A DNA stretch of 13,033 nucleotides, taken from the NCBI GenBank assembly GCA_030549815.1, contig JAUQQQ010000017.1:1-13033 (forward strand), written 5' to 3'. This stretch comes from a bacterium (GTDB taxonomy: Bacteria > DRYD01). Position 1 is the stretch's first letter; each line of letters begins with the position of its first letter. Under the pieces are notes generated by a model. The model was not told the DNA's origin. It worked only from the letters and a program-made list of their open reading frames with translations, and made no database searches. The translations under genes were made by a program, and so were the position numbers. Positions 3,375-12,672 of the stretch are shown here, piece after piece.

Positions 3375-4480
3375 AAATAATTCATCTTGGTAAATTCTGC
3401 CCTCCTAACGAAGGTGGTATAGAGGTTTTTTCTTTTGACCTACTTGAGACATTAAATAAAAAAGGCATAAAGGCGGATTTACTTTGCTTTGGCGATTCCA
3501 CAAAAGAGGATATTTGTAATAACTTTAAATATTTTGCTTGCAAGATGAATATAAAATTAAACTCTGCTCCATTATCGTATGATTTTGTAAAAACCTTTCA
3601 GAAAATAGCCAATGATTACGACATAATTCATATTCATAGTCCAAATCCCTTAGCTGAAGTTTTATCTTTATTTACTGACAAAAAAATGATAATCCACTGG
3701 CATTCAGATATAGTTAAGCAAAAAGTAACCTATCAGATTTACAAGCCTATTCAAAAAAAAGTTTTACAAAAAGCAAAAAAAATTATAGCAACTTCTCCAC
3801 AATACCTTAATACCTCCGATCAATTAAAAGATTATAAAGATAAAGCGGTAAACATACCATTGGGCTTGAATACTAAAAGACTTGAAATTAAAAATGAAAA
3901 CATAGAAGAATTTGAAAAAATAAAGAATAAAATCGATAATAAAAAAATCGTCTTAGCTGTTGGAAGACTTGTGGAACATAAAGGTTTTGAGTATCTTGTT
4001 GAAGCAAGCAGGTTTTTAAAAGATGACACAATAGTACTTATAGCTGGAGGAGGGCTTTTGTATGATCGCCTTCAAAATAAAATCAATGATCTGAGCCTAA
4101 GTAATAAAGTTTTATTACTTGGTAGAATTAATATTAATAATGTCTCTATATTTATGAAAAACTCTGATTTATTTTGTTTACCTTCAATTAATGAGTCTTT
4201 TGGCCTTGTATTGGTAGAAGCTTTATATTTTGGTAAACCACTCGTCACAACCAATGTAGAGGGATCTGGTATGAACTATGTAAATATACACAATGAAACA
4301 GGTCTTGTTGTTCCTCCAAAAGATCCAAAGGCATTAGCAGAGACTATAAATATGATATTGTCAGATAAAAACCTTTACAGCCGATTTTCAAAAAATGCTA
4401 AAGAGAGATTTAAAGAGTTTGAAATTAATTCAATAGCTGATAGGTTAATAAATCTATATCAGGAGGTTTTAAAATGCTAA
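3371..4480 (+). CDS. Glycosyltransferase family 4 (GT-B, retaining)
   Basis: A 369-residue GT4 enzyme with every usual landmark. MKIIHLGKFCPPNEGGIE is the N-terminal glycine-loop signature. IIHIHSPNP and IIHWHSDI lie near residues 85-113. AVGRLVEHKGFEYLVEA (about 196-212) starts the donor domain. INESFGLVLVEALYFGKP (about 273-290) holds the E-x7-E pair (Glu275/Glu283) that contacts the nucleotide-sugar. It is expected to be cytoplasmic and to extend the lipid-linked repeat unit. The start codon overlaps the preceding stop by 4 bp, with GGAGGA just upstream. The 3' end overlaps hddA by 7 bp. Relatives include mannosyl- and heptosyl-type transferases, so a GDP-linked donor such as GDP-heptose is possible given the neighbouring genes, but this is inference. 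Confidence 0.9.
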   Translation: MKIIHLGKFCPPNEGGIEVFSFDLLETLNKKGIKADLLCFGDSTKEDICNNFKYFACKMNIKLNSAPLSYDFVKTFQKIANDYDIIHIHSPNPLAEVLSLFTDKKMIIHWHSDIVKQKVTYQIYKPIQKKVLQKAKKIIATSPQYLNTSDQLKDYKDKAVNIPLGLNTKRLEIKNENIEEFEKIKNKIDNKKIVLAVGRLVEHKGFEYLVEASRFLKDDTIVLIAGGGLLYDRLQNKINDLSLSNKVLLLGRININNVSIFMKNSDLFCLPSINESFGLVLVEALYFGKPLVTTNVEGSGMNYVNIHNETGLVVPPKDPKALAETINMILSDKNLYSRFSKNAKERFKEFEINSIADRLINLYQEVLKC

Positions 4481-5499
4481 TACGCTCTTGTGCACCTTTA
4501 AGGCTTGGGCTTGCTGGTGGTGGAACCGATGTTAGCCCTTATTCGGACATTTACGGAGGTGCTGTTTTAAATGCCACAATTTCTATGTATGCCTATGCCA
4601 CCATTGAGCCAAGAAACGACGGAAAAATTGAAATTATTTCATTTGATAGAAACGAATCTGTGTTAACAGATGCTATACCTGAGCTTGAGATTGACGGAAA
4701 GCTTGATATTATAAAAGGTGTTTACAATAGAATAGCAAGGGATTTTAATAAAAGTAATCCTCTTTCTTTTACTATTTGCACTTATGCTGATGCGCCTGCT
4801 GGTTCTGGACTTGGAACATCATCTACCTTAGTTGTTGCTGTTATAGGTGCTTTTGCTGAGTGGCTTGGACTTCCACTTGGAGAATACGATATTGCTCATC
4901 TTGCCTTTGAAATAGAAAGAATTGACCTAAACCAAGCAGGTGGAAAACAAGATCAATATGCTGCAACTTTTGGTGGTTTTAATTTTATGGAATTTTACGA
5001 TAATCACAAAGTCATTGTAAATCCACTAAGGATTAAAAGAGAAATAATTGACGAACTGCAGTTTAATCTTGTGTTATACTATACGGGAACAAGCAGATTA
5101 TCATCCAAAATTATAGAAGCTCAAGTAAAGAGCGTAGAAGCAGGTAAAAATAAATCAATAGAAGCTATGCATAAGCTTAAAGAACAAGCCATCTTGATGA
5201 AAGAGGCTATACTAAAAGGAAAACTTGATGAGATAGGGGAAATACTGCATTTTGGTTGGCAGTACAAAAAGCAAATGGCAGATAGCATAACAAACCCGGT
5301 TATAGATGAAATATATGAAGAAGCTTTACGTGCAGGCGCTACCGGTGGAAAAATTTCTGGAGCTGGTGGTGGTGGCTTTATAATGTTTTATTGCCCAAAA
5401 AACACAAGATACAGAGTAATTGAAGCTTTAAAAAAATTTGGTGGAGAATTCAGACGTTATCAATTTACAAAGTACGGATTAAACACATGGAGGTTGTAA
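4474..5499 (+). CDS. hddA: D-glycero-alpha-D-manno-heptose-7-phosphate kinase (GHMP kinase)
   Basis: HddA phosphorylates D-glycero-D-manno-heptose 7-phosphate at C1 with ATP, giving the alpha-1,7-bisphosphate on the route to GDP-D,D-heptose. The 341-residue length is normal for the family. Visible GHMP motifs are APLRLGLAGGGTDVSPY (residues 7-23, sugar binding), DAPAGSGLGTSS (106-117, ATP phosphate loop), GGKQDQYAA (156-164, with the probable catalytic Asp160) and GGKISGAGGGGF (291-302, third GHMP motif). The start is firm: ATG at 4474 follows AGGAGG (4461-4466) at good spacing and overlaps the upstream glycosyltransferase by 7 bp. gmhA and hddC follow after one intervening methyltransferase gene, which supports the HddA assignment over other GHMP kinases such as fucokinase. 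Base composition is noticeably less AT-rich than the flanking glycosyltransferase and methyltransferase genes. Confidence 0.95.
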   Translation: MLIRSCAPLRLGLAGGGTDVSPYSDIYGGAVLNATISMYAYATIEPRNDGKIEIISFDRNESVLTDAIPELEIDGKLDIIKGVYNRIARDFNKSNPLSFTICTYADAPAGSGLGTSSTLVVAVIGAFAEWLGLPLGEYDIAHLAFEIERIDLNQAGGKQDQYAATFGGFNFMEFYDNHKVIVNPLRIKREIIDELQFNLVLYYTGTSRLSSKIIEAQVKSVEAGKNKSIEAMHKLKEQAILMKEAILKGKLDEIGEILHFGWQYKKQMADSITNPVIDEIYEEALRAGATGGKISGAGGGGFIMFYCPKNTRYRVIEALKKFGGEFRRYQFTKYGLNTWRL

Positions 5500-5504
5500 A
5501 GATT

Positions 5505-6212
5505 ATGAATATGGTTAAACGGATGAGAATATTATTTACTCCAAAGTTTTTGTTTTTAAATAAGTTTATAAATAGTTATTCAGAAGATAAAATTAAATTA
5601 TTAGATGTAGGATGTGGCAACAAAAGTCCATCTATTACAGTATCACTATTTCCAAAAGTAGAATATTTTGGATTAGACAAAGAAGAATACAATCTAACAA
5701 ATGAAGATAAAAAGATATTAGAAAATAAATATTTTTTAGTAGATTTAGACAATTTATCTGAATTAGATAATGCTCTACCTAATAATTATTTTGATTTTAT
5801 CATAATGTCTCATGTTATTGAGCATACTAGAAAGGGTACGGAAATATTAGAAATACTTTCTAAAAAGTTGAAAGTTGGGGGGATATATATAGAATTTCCA
5901 AGTGTAAAAAGTATATCTTTTCCGTCTATGCCGGGAACCTTAAATTTCTGTGATGATTCTAATCATGTGAGGTTATATGATATTAAAGAAGTAGCTAATA
6001 CGTTAATAAAATGCGAATTTAAGATAATTAAAGCAGGAACAAGAAGAAATTATGTAAACTTGATATTGACACCACTAAAAGTAATTTATCATCTTATAAA
6101 GTACCGTCAAATTTATGGTAGTGCCTTTTGGGATATTTTAGGTTTTGCTGAATTTGTTTATACTGTAAAAATCAAGGATACACAAATAAGGAGTAAAAGC
6201 AATGAACAATAA
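5505..6212 (+). CDS. Class I SAM-dependent methyltransferase
   Basis: The product is a 235-residue Rossmann-fold methyltransferase. KLLDVGCGNKSP (about 31-42) is motif I for S-adenosylmethionine. EYFGLDKEE (about 53-61) carries the acidic residue of motif II. NYFDFIIMSHVIEH (about 94-107) is the usual post-II motif, and VGGIYIEFPS follows. The later HVRLYD (about 154-159) is common in methyltransferases of polysaccharide clusters. I prefer the ATG at 5505, since GGAGG (5489-5493) lies 11 nt upstream and it leaves 5 bp after hddA. An in-frame ATG at 5487 inside the end of hddA would add six residues but has no visible RBS. It overlaps gmhA by 11 bp. Lying between two heptose genes, it may methylate the heptose or another residue of the glycan. 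The substrate is not evident. Confidence 0.8.
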   Translation: MNMVKRMRILFTPKFLFLNKFINSYSEDKIKLLDVGCGNKSPSITVSLFPKVEYFGLDKEEYNLTNEDKKILENKYFLVDLDNLSELDNALPNNYFDFIIMSHVIEHTRKGTEILEILSKKLKVGGIYIEFPSVKSISFPSMPGTLNFCDDSNHVRLYDIKEVANTLIKCEFKIIKAGTRRNYVNLILTPLKVIYHLIKYRQIYGSAFWDILGFAEFVYTVKIKDTQIRSKSNEQ

Positions 6213-6801
6213 TTTGATAAGCGACATTAAAAAAAGTATTTCAGAATCAATCCAAGTTAAGCAAAATATATTAGAAAATCCTGATCTTTTATCTAAAATC
6301 TCACTAGTCTCGCAAGAAATAATCAATGCATTTAAAAACGATAAAAAAGTACTTTTTTGTGGAAATGGTGGTTCCGCAGCTGATGCTCAACACATAGCAG
6401 CAGAACTTTCTGGAAGGTTTTATTTTGATAGAGAACCTCTTTTTGCAGAAGCCTTACATGCAAATACCTCCTACCTTACAGCAGTAGCAAATGATTATTC
6501 TTATGATGAGGTTTTTTCGAGACTTGTAAAAGCTAAAGGAAGAGCTGGAGACATACTTATAGGTATTTCTACTTCTGGAAATTCCAAAAATGTTATAAAA
6601 GCCATAGAAGTAGCTAATGAAATCGGCATGATAAGTGTTGGGATGACCGGTAAAACTGGGGGTAAGATGAAAGATATATGTAAGCACCTTATTAATGTTC
6701 CATCAGCTGATACTCCAAGAATTCAAGAAGCACATATAATGATAGGTCATATAATTTGCGAAATAGTTGAAAAAGTTCTTTTTGAAAAACACAATGGTTA
6801 A
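6202..6801 (+). CDS. gmhA: Sedoheptulose-7-phosphate isomerase (phosphoheptose isomerase)
   Basis: GmhA isomerises sedoheptulose 7-phosphate to D-glycero-D-manno-heptose 7-phosphate, the first committed step to activated heptose, in the cytoplasm. The product is 199 residues, the normal length, and is a single SIS domain. LFCGNGGSAADAQHIAAELSGR (split here as LFCGNGGSAADA at about 51-62 and QHIAAELSGR after it) contains the phosphate-binding loop and His64/Glu68. GISTSGNSKNV (about 121-131) is the second sugar-phosphate loop. IQEAHIMIGH gives Gln175 and His183. These four residues sit at a constant +3 offset from the zinc ligands His61, Glu65, Gln172 and His180 of E. coli GmhA, so the active site is complete. 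AAGGAG at 6188-6193 lies 8 nt before the ATG. It overlaps the methyltransferase by 11 bp and hddC by 8 bp. Confidence 0.97.
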   Translation: MNNNLISDIKKSISESIQVKQNILENPDLLSKISLVSQEIINAFKNDKKVLFCGNGGSAADAQHIAAELSGRFYFDREPLFAEALHANTSYLTAVANDYSYDEVFSRLVKAKGRAGDILIGISTSGNSKNVIKAIEVANEIGMISVGMTGKTGGKMKDICKHLINVPSADTPRIQEAHIMIGHIICEIVEKVLFEKHNG

Positions 6802-7498
6802 AGAAGCTGTTATTCTTGCAGGTGGCTTTGGCACAAGACTTAGGTCTGTGGTAAAAGATATCCCTAAACCTATGGCAGAAGTCTGCGGAAGACCTTTTCT
6901 TAGTTATTTACTGGATTTTTTAAACAAACAAAAAATTGAAAGAGTTATATTATCTGTTGGATATAAATTTGATATTATCAAAAACTTCTTTGGTAGTAGA
7001 TACAAAGATTTAAAATTAGAGTATGCCATCGAAGACAAACCTCTTGGAACCGGCGGTGGATTAAAGAATGCTTTAAAGTATACATCCGAAAAAAATATTT
7101 ATGTTTTAAATGGCGATACTTTTTTTGATATAGACTTAATTATATTTTTCAATTTTCATAAAAATAAAAACTCAAAATTAACCATTGCATTAAAAAAAAT
7201 AGAAAATGCTGAAAGATATGGAGTTGTTGAGATTGATCACAACAACAAAATAATCTCTTTTCTTGAAAAAGGAAAAATGAATTCTGGATTTATAAACAGT
7301 GGTATTTATTTGTTAAATATAGAATTTTTTAAATCGTTAGCACTAGAAGATTCCTTTTCTTTTGAAAAAAACTTTTTAGAAAAGTACTATAAAAAATTTG
7401 AATTTTATGGCTTTCCCTTAGATAGATTTTTCATAGACATAGGAATACCCGAAGACTACGAAAGAGCTAATATAGAGTTTCAAAGATTTAAAGATTAA
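6794..7498 (+). CDS. hddC: D-glycero-alpha-D-manno-heptose 1-phosphate guanylyltransferase
   Basis: HddC transfers GMP from GTP to D,D-heptose 1-phosphate, giving GDP-D-glycero-alpha-D-manno-heptose. The 234-residue product is a nucleotidyltransferase (GT-A-like fold). Visible motifs are AVILAGGFGTRL (5-16, nucleotide loop), KDIPKPMAEVCGRPF (21-35), the metal-binding VLNGDTFFDID (about 104-114, Asp108), RYGVVEID and FLEKG, and the second metal-site region FFIDIGIPEDYERA near the C-terminus. I chose ATG 6794 because the protein then begins MVKEAVILAGG as in relatives. An in-frame TTG 27 nt upstream would add an unlikely leader. The start lies 8 bp inside gmhA. Specificity between GDP-heptose and other sugar-1-phosphate nucleotidyltransferases rests largely on linkage to hddA, gmhA and the gmhB stub. 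Confidence 0.9.
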   Translation: MVKEAVILAGGFGTRLRSVVKDIPKPMAEVCGRPFLSYLLDFLNKQKIERVILSVGYKFDIIKNFFGSRYKDLKLEYAIEDKPLGTGGGLKNALKYTSEKNIYVLNGDTFFDIDLIIFFNFHKNKNSKLTIALKKIENAERYGVVEIDHNNKIISFLEKGKMNSGFINSGIYLLNIEFFKSLALEDSFSFEKNFLEKYYKKFEFYGFPLDRFFIDIGIPEDYERANIEFQRFKD

Positions 7499-7583
7499 TA
7501 AAGACAAGACCTTATTTTTAGATAGAGACGGAGTTATAAACAAAAGATTGAAAAATTTCATTTTTTCACTACAATACCTTTAA
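7494..7583 (+). pseudogene. gmhB: 5' fragment of D,D-heptose bisphosphate phosphatase gene, truncated
   Basis: Directly after hddC, frame 3 reads INKDKTLFLDRDGVINKRL. This is the conserved N-terminus of GmhB/HisB-type HAD phosphatases, with the nucleophile and general acid of LDRDG. Homology stops after about residue 20 of the expected ~175-190. The frame then reads unrelated KNFIFSLQYL and stops at 7581-7583. No ATG, GTG or TTG is in frame back to the previous stop at 7473-7475, so the start would have to be ATT or another rare codon, or it has also decayed. GmhB removes the C7 phosphate of the heptose bisphosphate between the HddA and HddC steps, so its place here is exactly expected. The break falls at an 8-bp direct repeat that also occurs at 9264-9271, pointing to the downstream nuclease cassette as the cause or a later event. 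Confidence 0.8.
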
Positions 7584-7602
7584 GCATTTTTGCATTTATA
7601 AA

Positions 7603-7630
7603 TTTACATACAAAATTCTTTTTATATTTT
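7603..7630 (+). promoter_or_regulatory. Possible sigma70-type promoter for the nuclease gene
   Basis: TTTACA (7603-7608) and TATTTT (7625-7630) are separated by 16 bp in a very AT-rich leader about 30 bp before the GTG start at 7660. This is the first real intergenic gap in the window, so a private promoter is plausible. AT-rich sequence gives many such matches by chance, so this is a weak call. The 9-bp inverted repeat at 7608-7634 would overlap the spacer and -10 region. Confidence 0.25.
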
Positions 7631-7634
7631 GTAT
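7608..7634. repeat. Perfect 9-bp inverted repeat in the nuclease-gene leader
   Basis: ATACAAAAT (7608-7616) and its exact reverse complement ATTTTGTAT (7626-7634) are separated by nine T-rich bases. The dyad lies 25 bp before the GTG start of the nuclease gene and just upstream of its RBS. It could be an operator for a dimeric regulator or a weak hairpin in the mRNA leader. The symmetry is seen directly; any function is inferred. Confidence 0.5.
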
Positions 7635-7659
7635 TTCAACTCTTCGCAGGAGACAAAAA

Positions 7660-9213
7660 GTGAAAGATTTACCCATTGGAATCCAATCTTTTAAAAAAAT
7701 TAGAGAACAAAATTTCTACTACGTCGATAAAACTCCTTTCGTTAAAAAATTAGAACGCGGTGGTTACTACTTCCTTAGTAGACCCAGAAGGTTCGGCAAA
7801 TCCCTTTTCTTAGACACCCTAAAAGAAGCTTTCTCGGGCAATAAAGAACTCTTTCATGGCCTATTCCTCTACAATAATTGGAATTGGAACAAAAAACATC
7901 CCGTCATCAAAATCAGCTTCGCAGGCGGTAATTTCACTACCCCAGAAAATCTAAAAATCAAAATCCACGAAAACTTCTTAAACCTTCAAAGAGAATTTAA
8001 AGTTAACCTTACCTACCCTTCTTACAGCGGTAAACTCAGTGAACTGATTTATCTTCTCTACGAAAAATACAACGAACGTGTCGTCGTCTTAGTTGATGAA
8101 TACGATAGCCCCATTTTAGATGCAATCGAAAACATTGATTATGCTAAAGAAAATAGACAAATCCTCAAAGATTTCTACTCCATATTAAAAGATTCTGACC
8201 CTTACATTCAGCTTGTATTCCTAACAGGTGTGTCAAGATTTTCTAAGGTTTCAATATTCAGCGGACTAAATCAGCTAAACGATATCACAATAGACCCTGA
8301 ATTTTCTACTATATGTGGATATACACAAAACGACCTTGAAACAGTCTTCGCAGACAGACTAAAAGACTTCGACAAAGAAGAAATAAAAAGATGGTACAAT
8401 GGATACAGCTGGTTAGGAGAAAAAGTGTATAACCCTTTTGATATCCTTTTACTATTTGATAAAAAGACTTTTAAACCTTACTGGTTCGAAACAGGAACAC
8501 CCACATTTCTCATCAAGCTTTTTAAACAAAACAAATACTTCCTGCCAAAAACAGAAAATCTAAAAGTAGGAGAAGAGATTTTATCTAATCTGGATATTGA
8601 TAATATTCGCGTTGAAAATTTATTGTTTCAAACAGGATATTTAACAATTAAAGAACTTATAGAGGATTCCACAGGAAGAATCTATATTTTAAGCTATCCG
8701 AATTTCGAAGTCAAAAAAAGTTTTAACAACTATTTCTTGGCAAACTTAATACCAGATCCAACAGTAAAGACAGAAACAGATTTAGAAATCAAATCAGCAT
8801 TAAAAAACAACCAAATCGAAAAACTACCAGAAATTTTACACACCTTTTTTGCAAGCATCCCCTATGATTGGTATAGAAAAAACGATTTAGAAAGCTACGA
8901 AGGTTTTTATGCTTCTATCGTATATGCTCTCTTTAACGGTGCTGGATTCGATGTAGTCGCAGAAGATACCACAAACAGGGGCAGAATTGATCTAACCATT
9001 ACTTACAATAACAAGGCTTACATCATCGAGTTTAAAGTAGTTGAAGATCAACCAGAAAAATCAGCCTTACACCAGATAGAAGAAAAAAAATATTACGAAA
9101 AATATGTAGGAAAATACGAAGAGATTTGCCTTATCGGAATTGAATTTAGCAAAAAAGAGAGAAATATCGTAGATTTTGAATGGAAGAAAATCGAGGATAT
9201 GGAAATAAAATAA
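7660..9213 (+). CDS. AAA-ATPase-like protein with C-terminal PD-(D/E)XK nuclease domain
   Basis: A 517-residue, full-length member of the AAA-ATPase_like (PF09820) plus PD-(D/E)XK (DUF1703-type) family. Residues 2-24 carry the family's start, LPIGIQSFKKIREQNFYYVD followed by KT. RPRRFGKS (41-48) is the Walker A-like loop, and VVVLVDEYDS (141-150) is Walker B. The C-terminal nuclease core has Asp444 in GRIDLTI and Glu457/Lys459 in IIEFKV, a complete D-x12-E-x-K. The start is GTG with AGGAGA at 7648-7653, 7 nt upstream. It uses many C-ending codons (TTC, TAC, ATC), unlike its neighbours. It interrupts the heptose/rhamnose operon and has no link to glycan synthesis, so it is probably a horizontally acquired passenger. 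Family members are often present in many copies per genome. Their function is not established; defence or mobile-element roles are conjecture. No terminator follows, and rmlD starts 31 nt after the stop. Confidence 0.9.
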   Translation: MKDLPIGIQSFKKIREQNFYYVDKTPFVKKLERGGYYFLSRPRRFGKSLFLDTLKEAFSGNKELFHGLFLYNNWNWNKKHPVIKISFAGGNFTTPENLKIKIHENFLNLQREFKVNLTYPSYSGKLSELIYLLYEKYNERVVVLVDEYDSPILDAIENIDYAKENRQILKDFYSILKDSDPYIQLVFLTGVSRFSKVSIFSGLNQLNDITIDPEFSTICGYTQNDLETVFADRLKDFDKEEIKRWYNGYSWLGEKVYNPFDILLLFDKKTFKPYWFETGTPTFLIKLFKQNKYFLPKTENLKVGEEILSNLDIDNIRVENLLFQTGYLTIKELIEDSTGRIYILSYPNFEVKKSFNNYFLANLIPDPTVKTETDLEIKSALKNNQIEKLPEILHTFFASIPYDWYRKNDLESYEGFYASIVYALFNGAGFDVVAEDTTNRGRIDLTITYNNKAYIIEFKVVEDQPEKSALHQIEEKKYYEKYVGKYEEICLIGIEFSKKERNIVDFEWKKIEDMEIK

Positions 9214-9244: not shown

Positions 9245-10147
9245 ATGGTAGATTTTAGCATGATGAAAAATGGAATATTACTTAAACTTTCCCAATATTC
9301 AAAAATCCTAATCACTGGTGCAAATGGACAGTTAGGATATGATTTTAGGCGACTTTTAGACAGCATAGGTGCTAATTATATAGCCACAGGTCATAAAGAA
9401 CTGGATATTACGCAAAAAGACCGAGTATCCGATTTTGTAAAATCGATGGGATTTGATCTTATCATAAATTGTGCAGCCTATAATGATGTAGACAAAGCAG
9501 AAGATGATGTGGAAAACTGCTTTAAATTAAATGCTTATGCTCCACATGATTTAGCTAAGGTGGCAAAAGAGCTAAAAGCTACTTTTATCACTTATTCCAC
9601 AGATTTTGTTTTTGATGGCAATAAAAATGCACCTTATACAGAAAATGATAAACCAAACCCGCTTTCCACATATGGAAAAAGTAAACTAGAAGGAGAAAAC
9701 CTCGTATTAGAAGAATATGATAGATCCATAGTAATTCGCACCTCTTGGCTTTTCGGGATAAACAATAAGAATTTTAATACACAGGTTTTAAATTGGGCTA
9801 AAAATAATAAAGAATTAAAGATAGTAGATGATCAAGTCTCATCTCCTACGTATTCTTTTGATCTTGCTCTTTTTTCTCTTCTGTTACTTGAAAAAAAAGT
9901 TTTTGGTTTATTTCATTTTTCAAATGATGGGGTTGCAAGTAAATATGATCAGGCATTTTATCTTTTGAATAAGATAGGTTGGGATGGGGTGATACATAGA
10001 GGAAAAACATCAGAGTTTAATTTAAAAGCTCCAAGACCATCTTTTAGCAAGCTTGACAGTAGTAAAATAGAAAGTATAATGGGTATAAAAATACCTACCT
10101 GGCAATCTGGAATAGATAGATGGTGGGAGGAATTTAATGCCGTTTAG
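9245..10147 (+). CDS. rmlD: dTDP-4-dehydrorhamnose reductase with atypical N-terminal extension
   Basis: RmlD reduces dTDP-4-dehydro-L-rhamnose to dTDP-L-rhamnose with NAD(P)H, the last step of the pathway. The 300-residue product is an extended SDR: KILITGANGQLG (20-31, dinucleotide loop), IINCAAYNDVDKAE (about 73-86), STDFVFDG (118-125) and STYGKSKLEGE, with catalytic Tyr143 and Lys147. The usual family start would be MKILITGANG. Here that Met is replaced by Ser19 and about 19 extra residues precede it. Possible starts are ATG 9245 (AGGAA at 9236-9240, tight spacing of 4) or the tandem ATGs at 9260 and 9263. The extension NGILLKLSQYSKILI resembles the GmhB segment before its VTNQ motif, so the 5' end looks like a gmhB remnant fused to rmlD. 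It overlaps rmlC by 11 bp. Confidence 0.93.
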   Translation: MVDFSMMKNGILLKLSQYSKILITGANGQLGYDFRRLLDSIGANYIATGHKELDITQKDRVSDFVKSMGFDLIINCAAYNDVDKAEDDVENCFKLNAYAPHDLAKVAKELKATFITYSTDFVFDGNKNAPYTENDKPNPLSTYGKSKLEGENLVLEEYDRSIVIRTSWLFGINNKNFNTQVLNWAKNNKELKIVDDQVSSPTYSFDLALFSLLLLEKKVFGLFHFSNDGVASKYDQAFYLLNKIGWDGVIHRGKTSEFNLKAPRPSFSKLDSSKIESIMGIKIPTWQSGIDRWWEEFNAV

Positions 10148-10697
10148 TTTTGAAAAGACTTTTTTAGATGGGGTGATATTGGTTACTCCTAAGATTTTTT
10201 TAGATGAAAGAGGCTTTTTTTTTGAGAGTTATAAAAAGTCAGATTTTTTCGATATTGGGATAAGAGAGGAGTTTCTTCAGGACAATCATTCCAAATCGAT
10301 AAAAGGGGTTCTCAGGGGTTTACATTTTCAAAAAGAGCCATATGCTCAAGGGAAGTTAGTTAGATGTGTCCAAGGTGAGATTTTTGACGTTGCTGTGGAT
10401 ATCCGAAAAGATAGTCCTACATTTGGGAAATGGTATGGCACTATTTTAAGTGCGGAAAACAAAAAAATGTTATGGATACCCAAAGGGTTTGCCCATGGAT
10501 TTCTGACATTATCAGAAACAGCGGAAATTATCTACAAAGTATCAGGAAGTGAATACAACCCTTCTTATGATGCTGGGATTATATGGAACGATCCCTCTAT
10601 AAATATCGTATGGCCATTGGAAGATTATGGGATCAAAAAGCCGATCCTGTCGTCAAAAGATGAAAGTTTACCATTACTAAAAAATATTGAGGTATAG
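10137..10697 (+). CDS. rmlC: dTDP-4-dehydrorhamnose 3,5-epimerase
   Basis: RmlC epimerises dTDP-4-keto-6-deoxyglucose at C3 and C5 to the L-rhamno form. The 186-residue cupin has the normal length and signatures: [10 protein letters not shown] (23-32), [17 protein letters not shown] (49-65) with the catalytic base His63, [18 protein letters not shown] (73-90), [15 protein letters not shown] (113-127) and Tyr133, the likely acid. LSSKDESLP near the C-terminus gives Asp175, equivalent to the Asp that pairs with the catalytic His. The ATG follows GGGAGG (10125-10130) with 6-nt spacing, inside the last codons of rmlD, so translation is coupled. rmlB starts two bases after the stop. All active-site residues I can place are present. 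Confidence 0.96.
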
Positions 10698-10699
10698 AG

Positions 10700-11773
10700 A
10701 TGGATAATAGATATCAGTGTATTCTTGTAACGGGAGGGGCTGGATTTATCGGCTCCAATTTTATACGATACGTTTTTGAAAATACAGGTTTTGAAGGTAA
10801 GATTGTAAACATTGATAAATTGACCTATGCAGGCAATCTTGAAAATCTTGCAGATATAAATGAGAAATATTCTGACAGATATGTTTTCGAATGGGTTGAT
10901 ATTTGTGATTATGACAGAGTGGAGGATATCTTTAAAAGATACAGCCCAGATGCTGTGGTGCATTTTGCTGCTGAATCTCATGTAGATAGATCTATTCACG
11001 GGCCAAAAGATTTTATAAATACAAATGTTAACGGTACTTTTAATCTTATCGAAGCTGCAAGGAAATTTTGGCAAAATCGATTCGAATACACAAGATTTCA
11101 TCATATAAGCACAGATGAAGTATATGGCTCACTCGGTGATACAGGTTATTTTTACGAAACTACACCCTACGATCCTCGAAGCCCTTATTCTGCATCAAAA
11201 GCTGCATCAGATCATTTAGTAATGTCCTATTACCATACTTATGGGCTCAATGTTGTGATAACAAATTGTTCGAACAACTATGGTCCCTATCAATTTCCAG
11301 AAAAGCTCATCCCTCTTATGATCCTAAATATGCTCGATGAAAAGCCTTTGCCGGTATACGGCGATGGTAAAAATATTAGAGACTGGTTGTATGTGGAAGA
11401 TCATTGCAGTGGTATTTGGGCTGTATTAAATAGAGGCAAAACGGGAGAAAAATACAACATCGGTGGTGAAAACGAATGGCATAATATAGATCTTGTAAAT
11501 AAGCTCTGTGAAATTGTAGCAGAAAAGTTGGGTAAACCGAAAGATTATTTTAAGAGGTTGATCACTTTTGTTCAAGATCGACCAGGGCATGATAGAAGAT
11601 ATGCAATAAATTGCGATAAGATAAAAAATGAACTCGGCTGGCGACAAAGTGTAACATTCGAAGAAGGATTAAATATAACAGTTGAATGGTATTTAAACAA
11701 TAAAAAATGGGTACAAAACATAAAAACTGGTAAATATTTAGAATGGTTAGAAATTAATTATAAAAAAAGATAG
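10700..11773 (+). CDS. rmlB: dTDP-glucose 4,6-dehydratase
   Basis: RmlB converts dTDP-glucose to dTDP-4-dehydro-6-deoxyglucose using bound NAD+. The 357-residue extended SDR carries [19 protein letters not shown] (8-26, NAD loop), [14 protein letters not shown] (37-50), [12 protein letters not shown] (88-99), [10 protein letters not shown] (134-143) with the catalytic Thr138-Asp139-Glu140 set, [12 protein letters not shown] with Tyr163/Lys167, [25 protein letters not shown], and [10 protein letters not shown]. This pattern is diagnostic for RmlB rather than a general epimerase. GAGG (10689-10692), within the last codons of rmlC, lies 7 nt before the ATG. Only eight bases separate it from rmlA. 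The gene order rmlD-C-B-A is the reverse of the enzymatic order and differs from the common rmlBDAC or rmlBADC. Confidence 0.97.
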
Positions 11774-11781
11774 AGGAAAAT

Positions 11782-12672
11782 ATGAAAGGTATAATTCTTG
11801 CAGGTGGAAGTGGCACAAGACTTTATCCGATTACTATACCTGTATGTAAACAGCTTTTACCTATCTATGATAAGCCGATGATATACTATCCCCTTTCTAC
11901 CCTGATGTTGGCTGGTATTAGAGAGATTTTAATTATTTCAACCCCACAAGATATTTCAAGGTTTGAACAGCTATTTGGGGATGGCTCACATCTTGGTTTA
12001 AGTATCAGCTACAAGGTGCAGCCAAAGCCAGAGGGACTTGCTCAAGCTTTTATAATAGGTGAAGACTTTATAGGAAAAGAAAATGTTTGTCTTGTATTAG
12101 GAGACAACATTTTTTATGGACATAATCTTACTACCCTATTAAAAAGAAGTGTGGACAAGATCGAAAAAGATGGTGGAGCTGTGGTTTTTGGCTATTATGT
12201 AAAAGATCCAGAGAGATATGGAGTGGTGGAGTTTGATGGAAGTGGGAAAGTTTTAAGTATTGAAGAGAAGCCTAAGGAACCTAAATCCAATTATGCAGTA
12301 GTAGGGCTATATTTTTATGATAATAATGTGGTGGAGATAGCAAAAAATGTCAAACCCTCTTGGCGAGGGGAGCTGGAAATCACCACAGTAAATCAAGCTT
12401 ATTTGGAGAAAAATAGTCTTACAGTAGAATTGATGGGACGTGGATATGCTTGGCTTGATACAGGAACTGTGGATTCGCTTCTCGAAGCAAGCGAGTTTGT
12501 AAAGATCATAGAAGATAGGACTGGTCTAAAAATAGGATGTATTGAGGAGATAGCGTATAGAAATGGCTGGATCACAAAAGATCAGCTTCTCAAGCTTGCC
12601 GAAGATGTAATAAAAAGTGGATATGGAGAGTATTTGATAAGAATAGGGAAAACAGTAATAAGTGAGAAGTGA
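11782..12672 (+). CDS. rmlA: Glucose-1-phosphate thymidylyltransferase
   Basis: RmlA joins dTTP and glucose 1-phosphate to make dTDP-glucose, the entry and feedback point of the rhamnose pathway. The product is 296 residues, typical of the short RmlA class. Motifs in order are [17 protein letters not shown] (2-18, nucleotide loop), [18 protein letters not shown] (22-39), [11 protein letters not shown] (80-90), [11 protein letters not shown] (104-114, metal-binding Asp108), [31 protein letters not shown] (shown in parts: IEEKP and [11 protein letters not shown]), and [20 protein letters not shown] (second metal site). The start at 11782 follows GAGGA (11773-11777). It is the last intact gene of the window. 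No clear terminator hairpin follows, and the next bases are gene debris. Confidence 0.97.

Follow-up and report, generated by a model that had tools for sequence, protein, structure and literature searches.

A truncated gmhB in a GDP-heptose gene set and an intact GmhB-type phosphatase elsewhere in the same assembly

Introduction

In Campylobacter jejuni the heptose genes of the capsule cluster are hddC (Cj1423), gmhA (Cj1424) and hddA (Cj1425), and the GmhB used for GDP-heptose, Cj1152, is encoded outside that cluster, among the ADP-heptose/LPS genes (PMC10680097). Bacteroidota clusters with the order hddA-gmhA-hddC-gmhB (loci L044, L085 and L113 for the hddC-gmhB part) include the phosphatase gene, which overlaps the end of hddC. 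The GmhB of Helicobacter pylori prefers the beta anomer by a factor of only about three, its kcat/Km being 10.38 per mM per s compared with 3.57 for alpha (PMC8204981).

The locus described here is a polysaccharide gene cluster on C11, a contig of 13,033 bases that was analysed over its whole length (the window), and its GDP-heptose gene set consists of three full-length genes and a broken gmhB. It resembles the C. jejuni system in that the hdd cluster is without a working gmhB and the phosphatase of the genome is located among the genes of the ADP-heptose route or is part of that route, but differs in that the cluster's own gmhB has left a recognisable remnant and in that supply in trans is here what we infer. 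With the Bacteroidota clusters it shares the same genes, the same overlap of gmhB with hddC and 21 of 27 residues at the GmhB N-terminus; unlike those clusters, its gmhB is broken and is followed by an AAA-ATPase gene and then by rml genes.

Results

Gene content of the window

Genes were named from family models and from reading of the translations. Glycosyltransferase genes on the + strand precede hddA, and from there the features are:

4474-5499, + strand: hddA (NF049969, 442 bits, 337 of 338 positions, cut-off 600)
5487-6212, + strand: SAM-dependent methyltransferase gene, between hddA and gmhA (PF08242/PF13489)
6202-6801, + strand: gmhA, sedoheptulose 7-phosphate isomerase, full length (TIGR00441, 208 bits, cut-off 209)
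6794-7498, + strand: hddC, heptose 1-phosphate guanylyltransferase, full length, start ATG at 6794 (NF049965, 263 bits, cut-off 300)
7473-7475, + strand: TAG in place of the lost gmhB start, opposite the ATG of the gmhB genes of Bacteroidota in the alignment
7476-7556, + strand: gmhB remnant, codons 2-28 (21/27 identical, ungapped; GmhB models)
7557-7659, no strand: DNA without GmhB similarity, from the break to the AAA-ATPase gene (no GmhB match)
7660-9213, + strand: AAA-ATPase_like/PDDEXK_9 gene (PF09820, 221 bits; PF08011, 81 bits)
9245-12672, + strand: rmlD, rmlC, rmlB and rmlA (rmlD by PF04321/TIGR01214, the other three by reading of translations)

The earlier note on this DNA described gmhA, hddA and hddC as intact, and all three are full length, yet each scores under its curated NCBIfam cut-off. 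The HddA of the window is mostly 50-69% identical to HddA proteins whose genes adjoin hddC in other genomes, and a homologue of the methyltransferase, 39% identical, adjoins hddA in another locus (L080).

A 5' remnant of gmhB

The frame at 7476-7556 holds 27 codons that correspond to codons 2-28 of gmhB. Its translation, SFKDLKINKDKTLFLDRDGVINKRLKN, aligns without gaps with residues 2-28 (TLKDLNINKDWTLFLDRDGVINKKLDN) of the GmhB proteins encoded directly 3' of hddC in the Bacteroidota loci L049, L094 and L113, with 21 of the 27 residues identical and a BLOSUM62 score of 106. The DNA also aligns gap-free with Bacteroidota gmhB genes from the end of hddC to the DxDG codons, spanning the overlap of the two genes. 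Homology begins 5' of 7494, within the 3' end of hddC as is usual for this gene pair, and takes in DxDG, the N-terminal HAD motif, in surroundings typical of GmhB (LFLDRDGVIN). For the peptide at 7500-7583 the top NCBIfam match is the GmhB model NF006506 (19 bits, E 0.00075), a modest value because the query is only 27 residues long. A chance match was rejected in view of the ungapped protein match and the gap-free DNA alignment, and by these alignments the remnant is confirmed as a real gmhB 5' end, far beyond chance; the reservation that the short match might not be GmhB can thus be set aside.

The remnant had been placed at 7494-7583, with about 20 codons ending just after DxDG. The assignment to gmhB and the presence of DxDG hold, but the limits have moved: homology runs 8 codons past the motif and stops at about 7556, so that 7557-7583 is not gmhB. 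The decay had also been somewhat understated. Where the gmhB ATG should stand the window has TAG, and no ATG, GTG or TTG lies between this TAG and the DxDG motif, so the remnant is left without any of the usual start codons, even for a short peptide. The later HAD motifs and the zinc loop are missing as well, which makes the remnant a pseudogene fragment. No 3' part of gmhB was found anywhere in the window, including beyond the AAA-ATPase gene, and the approximately 100 bp at 7557-7659 match other parts of the genome over short stretches only.

The AAA-ATPase gene at the break

The product of 7660-9213 is the same two-domain PF09820/PDDEXK_9 protein as one encoded on pCALNI01, a plasmid of the hot-spring bacterium Calditerrivibrio nitroreducens, which is the closest plasmid relative at 60% identity; unlike the plasmid copy, the window gene adjoins a broken gene, on the 3' side of the break. 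The dozen or so PF09820 copies and fragments of its own genome are about 39-48% identical to it over longer stretches, and on these identities a separate acquisition of the window gene is likely. The break may stem either from insertion of the AAA-ATPase gene itself or from recombination that joined the hdd block to the rml block. An assembly error driven by repeats is unlikely at this gene, because its DNA matches the other copies over short stretches only.

PF09820 copies or fragments stand at about 12 places in the genome (G000); some are tandem neighbours, several are interrupted by internal stop codons, and contig C15 terminates inside one of them. At several sites within these paralogs, outside the window, there are inserts that are palindromic and rich in GC; they measure 19-22 bp, in most cases exactly 21 bp (7 codons), with a consensus of roughly G4-YA-G4-N-C4-TR-C4 (contigs C3, C5, C12, C15 and C19; loci L127-L130, L132, L134 and L135). 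All 16 genome occurrences of GGGGNCCCC are in or directly adjoin PF09820 paralogs; GGGGNNGGGGNCCCC matches this genome 14 times and has no match in six relatives from the same order, and one 21-base version of the insert has no match in viral contigs. From its distribution the insert looks like a short insertion element limited to one gene family. At the other side of the window gene, directly 3' of it, rmlD carries approximately 19-24 extra codons ahead of its usual start (9245-9301; KILITGANGQLG), and the rearrangement seen at the AAA-ATPase gene may also have altered this 5' end.

gmhB across hddC loci

In a sample of 80 hddC loci taken from named genomes, gmhB lies directly 3' of hddC in 57 and elsewhere in the locus in 4, while 3 loci end too early for a call. 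The remaining 16 have no gmhB nearby, with at least 700 nt of downstream sequence present, so an hdd cluster without gmhB is a common arrangement. A substitute HAD phosphatase directly behind hddC was also considered for these 16; on reading the translations of the first downstream ORFs, no obvious one was recognised.

A resident GmhB-type phosphatase

A search of the whole genome for other gmhB genes, as the earlier note had proposed, returned one GmhB-type gene besides the remnant, at C15:62940-63479, intact and encoding 180 aa. The DRDG, TNQSG, CPH...CRCRKP and GDSLVD motifs of the protein align to the GmhB structures 4pnh, 3l8e and 2gmw, and the protein has the full set of HAD motifs together with the Cys/His zinc loop. 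It scores below the curated GmhB cut-offs (NF006506, 132 against 178 bits; TIGR00213, 106 against 150; NF050049, 104 against 250), as does the HddC-linked Bacteroidota GmhB of L094. The scores from TIGR00213, the beta model, and NF050049, the alpha model, are alike, and family models therefore give no anomer preference for this protein; its activity on heptose alpha-1,7-bisphosphate is presumed.

The C15 gene is common to five relatives of the same family (52-71% identity), and hddC was not found in them at E <= 1e-40 (genomes 71-88% complete). In a tree with rough support values the C15 protein falls outside the Bacteroidota clade, on the same side as E. coli GmhB and HddC-linked GmhBs of Bacillota and others; by this placement its wider group includes members located in GDP-heptose clusters. 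We rejected the idea that the C15 gene is the operon's own gmhB relocated, because it lies outside the Bacteroidota clade and is present in relatives without a detected hddC. A role as histidinol phosphatase is unlikely, since seven genomes of the order were searched and none gave an imidazoleglycerol-phosphate dehydratase (IGPD) gene.

The same seven genomes all carry rfaE domain II. In this assembly hldE is split, its two halves (rfaE I and II) adjacent on C6 with domain I below cut-off, and a second gmhA is present on C5. A GmhA, the HldE kinase and adenylyltransferase and a GmhB are thus all encoded outside the window, and the simplest reading of these genes is a resident ADP-heptose route. 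The prediction that GDP-heptose synthesis should stall at the bisphosphate does not follow given this set, and the alternative offered beside it, a second gmhB elsewhere such as the one for ADP-heptose, has its counterpart in the intact C15 gene.

Discussion

The reading that we prefer, at a probability of roughly 0.55, is that the host acquired a GDP-heptose operon, that the gmhB belonging to this operon was then destroyed and that, provided the operon is functional, the resident GmhB stands in for it in trans. In this presumed order of events everything past codon 28 would have been lost, with a segment carrying the mobile-type AAA-ATPase/PD-(D/E)XK gene taking its place, and the start codon would have decayed to TAG. 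The loss would be tolerable because an ADP-heptose route, complete with a GmhB-type phosphatase, already existed in the host, and the C15 enzyme would most likely take the C7 phosphate off the HddA product. The frequent adjacency of hddC and gmhB (57/80), the aligned motifs of the C15 protein and its presence in relatives without a detected hddC all point this way, as do the ungapped match and lost start codon of the remnant, the hldE halves and second gmhA, the failure to find an IGPD gene, the GmhB outside the cluster in C. jejuni and the small beta preference of the H. pylori enzyme. As a second intact enzyme of the type is present in the same assembly, the acquired operon has probably lost gmhB through ordinary decay, the gene being redundant. 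However, the operon keeps its own gmhA despite the second gmhA, so redundancy alone does not account for gmhB being the one gene lost.

It is also conceivable, although we think it unlikely, that the operon is dead or dying, with no GDP-heptose made and the other three genes merely not yet degraded. The truncation of gmhB, the loss of its start codon and the unrelated gene inside the operon would all fit, and no relative in the order has hddC at E <= 1e-40, hence there is no comparison showing constraint. The full length and good family scores of hddA, gmhA and hddC argue the other way, as do the second GmhB-type enzyme in the assembly and the frequency of hdd clusters without gmhB.

Replacement in trans depends on C11 and C15 belonging to one genome. 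The assembly (1.59 Mb, 23 contigs, 90% complete) has an estimated contamination of 0.28%, but in tetranucleotide usage the window correlates with two host stretches at 0.44-0.46, where other host stretches reach 0.52-0.68, C11 has no terminal overlap with any other contig, and a search of the five family relatives gave no RmlB match at E <= 1e-60. C11 may therefore come from another genome, in which case the C15 enzyme says nothing about the operon, whose own genome could have a gmhB or lack one. The atypical composition and the lack of overlap would fit either horizontal transfer or mis-binning. Polysaccharide clusters are often foreign in composition, and although an overlap of exactly 127 bases is common among contig ends, some large contigs, C6 for example, are without overlaps too; we consider mis-binning quite improbable.

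Equally improbable, in our view, is the more specific proposal that the resident ADP-heptose-type GmhB serves both the beta (ADP-heptose) and alpha (GDP-heptose) routes and that the mobile-family AAA-ATPase/nuclease gene destroyed the operon gmhB by insertion. A phosphatase of non-GmhB type is very improbable for this step: some mature LPS was still produced by H. pylori after knockout of gmhB (PMC8204981) and other HAD proteins are present, such as a 192-aa protein on C9 with a weak histidinol-phosphatase domain match, but that protein covers only positions 102-143 of the 149 in the model and a full GmhB-type protein is available.

If replacement of the lost gmhB by the resident enzyme is correct, the locus would be a clear case of an acquired sugar-nucleotide operon that has one of its steps supplied by a resident pathway, and it would test how strict the anomer preference of GmhB is in vivo. 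More generally, with 16 of the 80 sampled hddC loci lacking a nearby gmhB, a gmhB missing from an hdd cluster does not mean that the pathway is missing.
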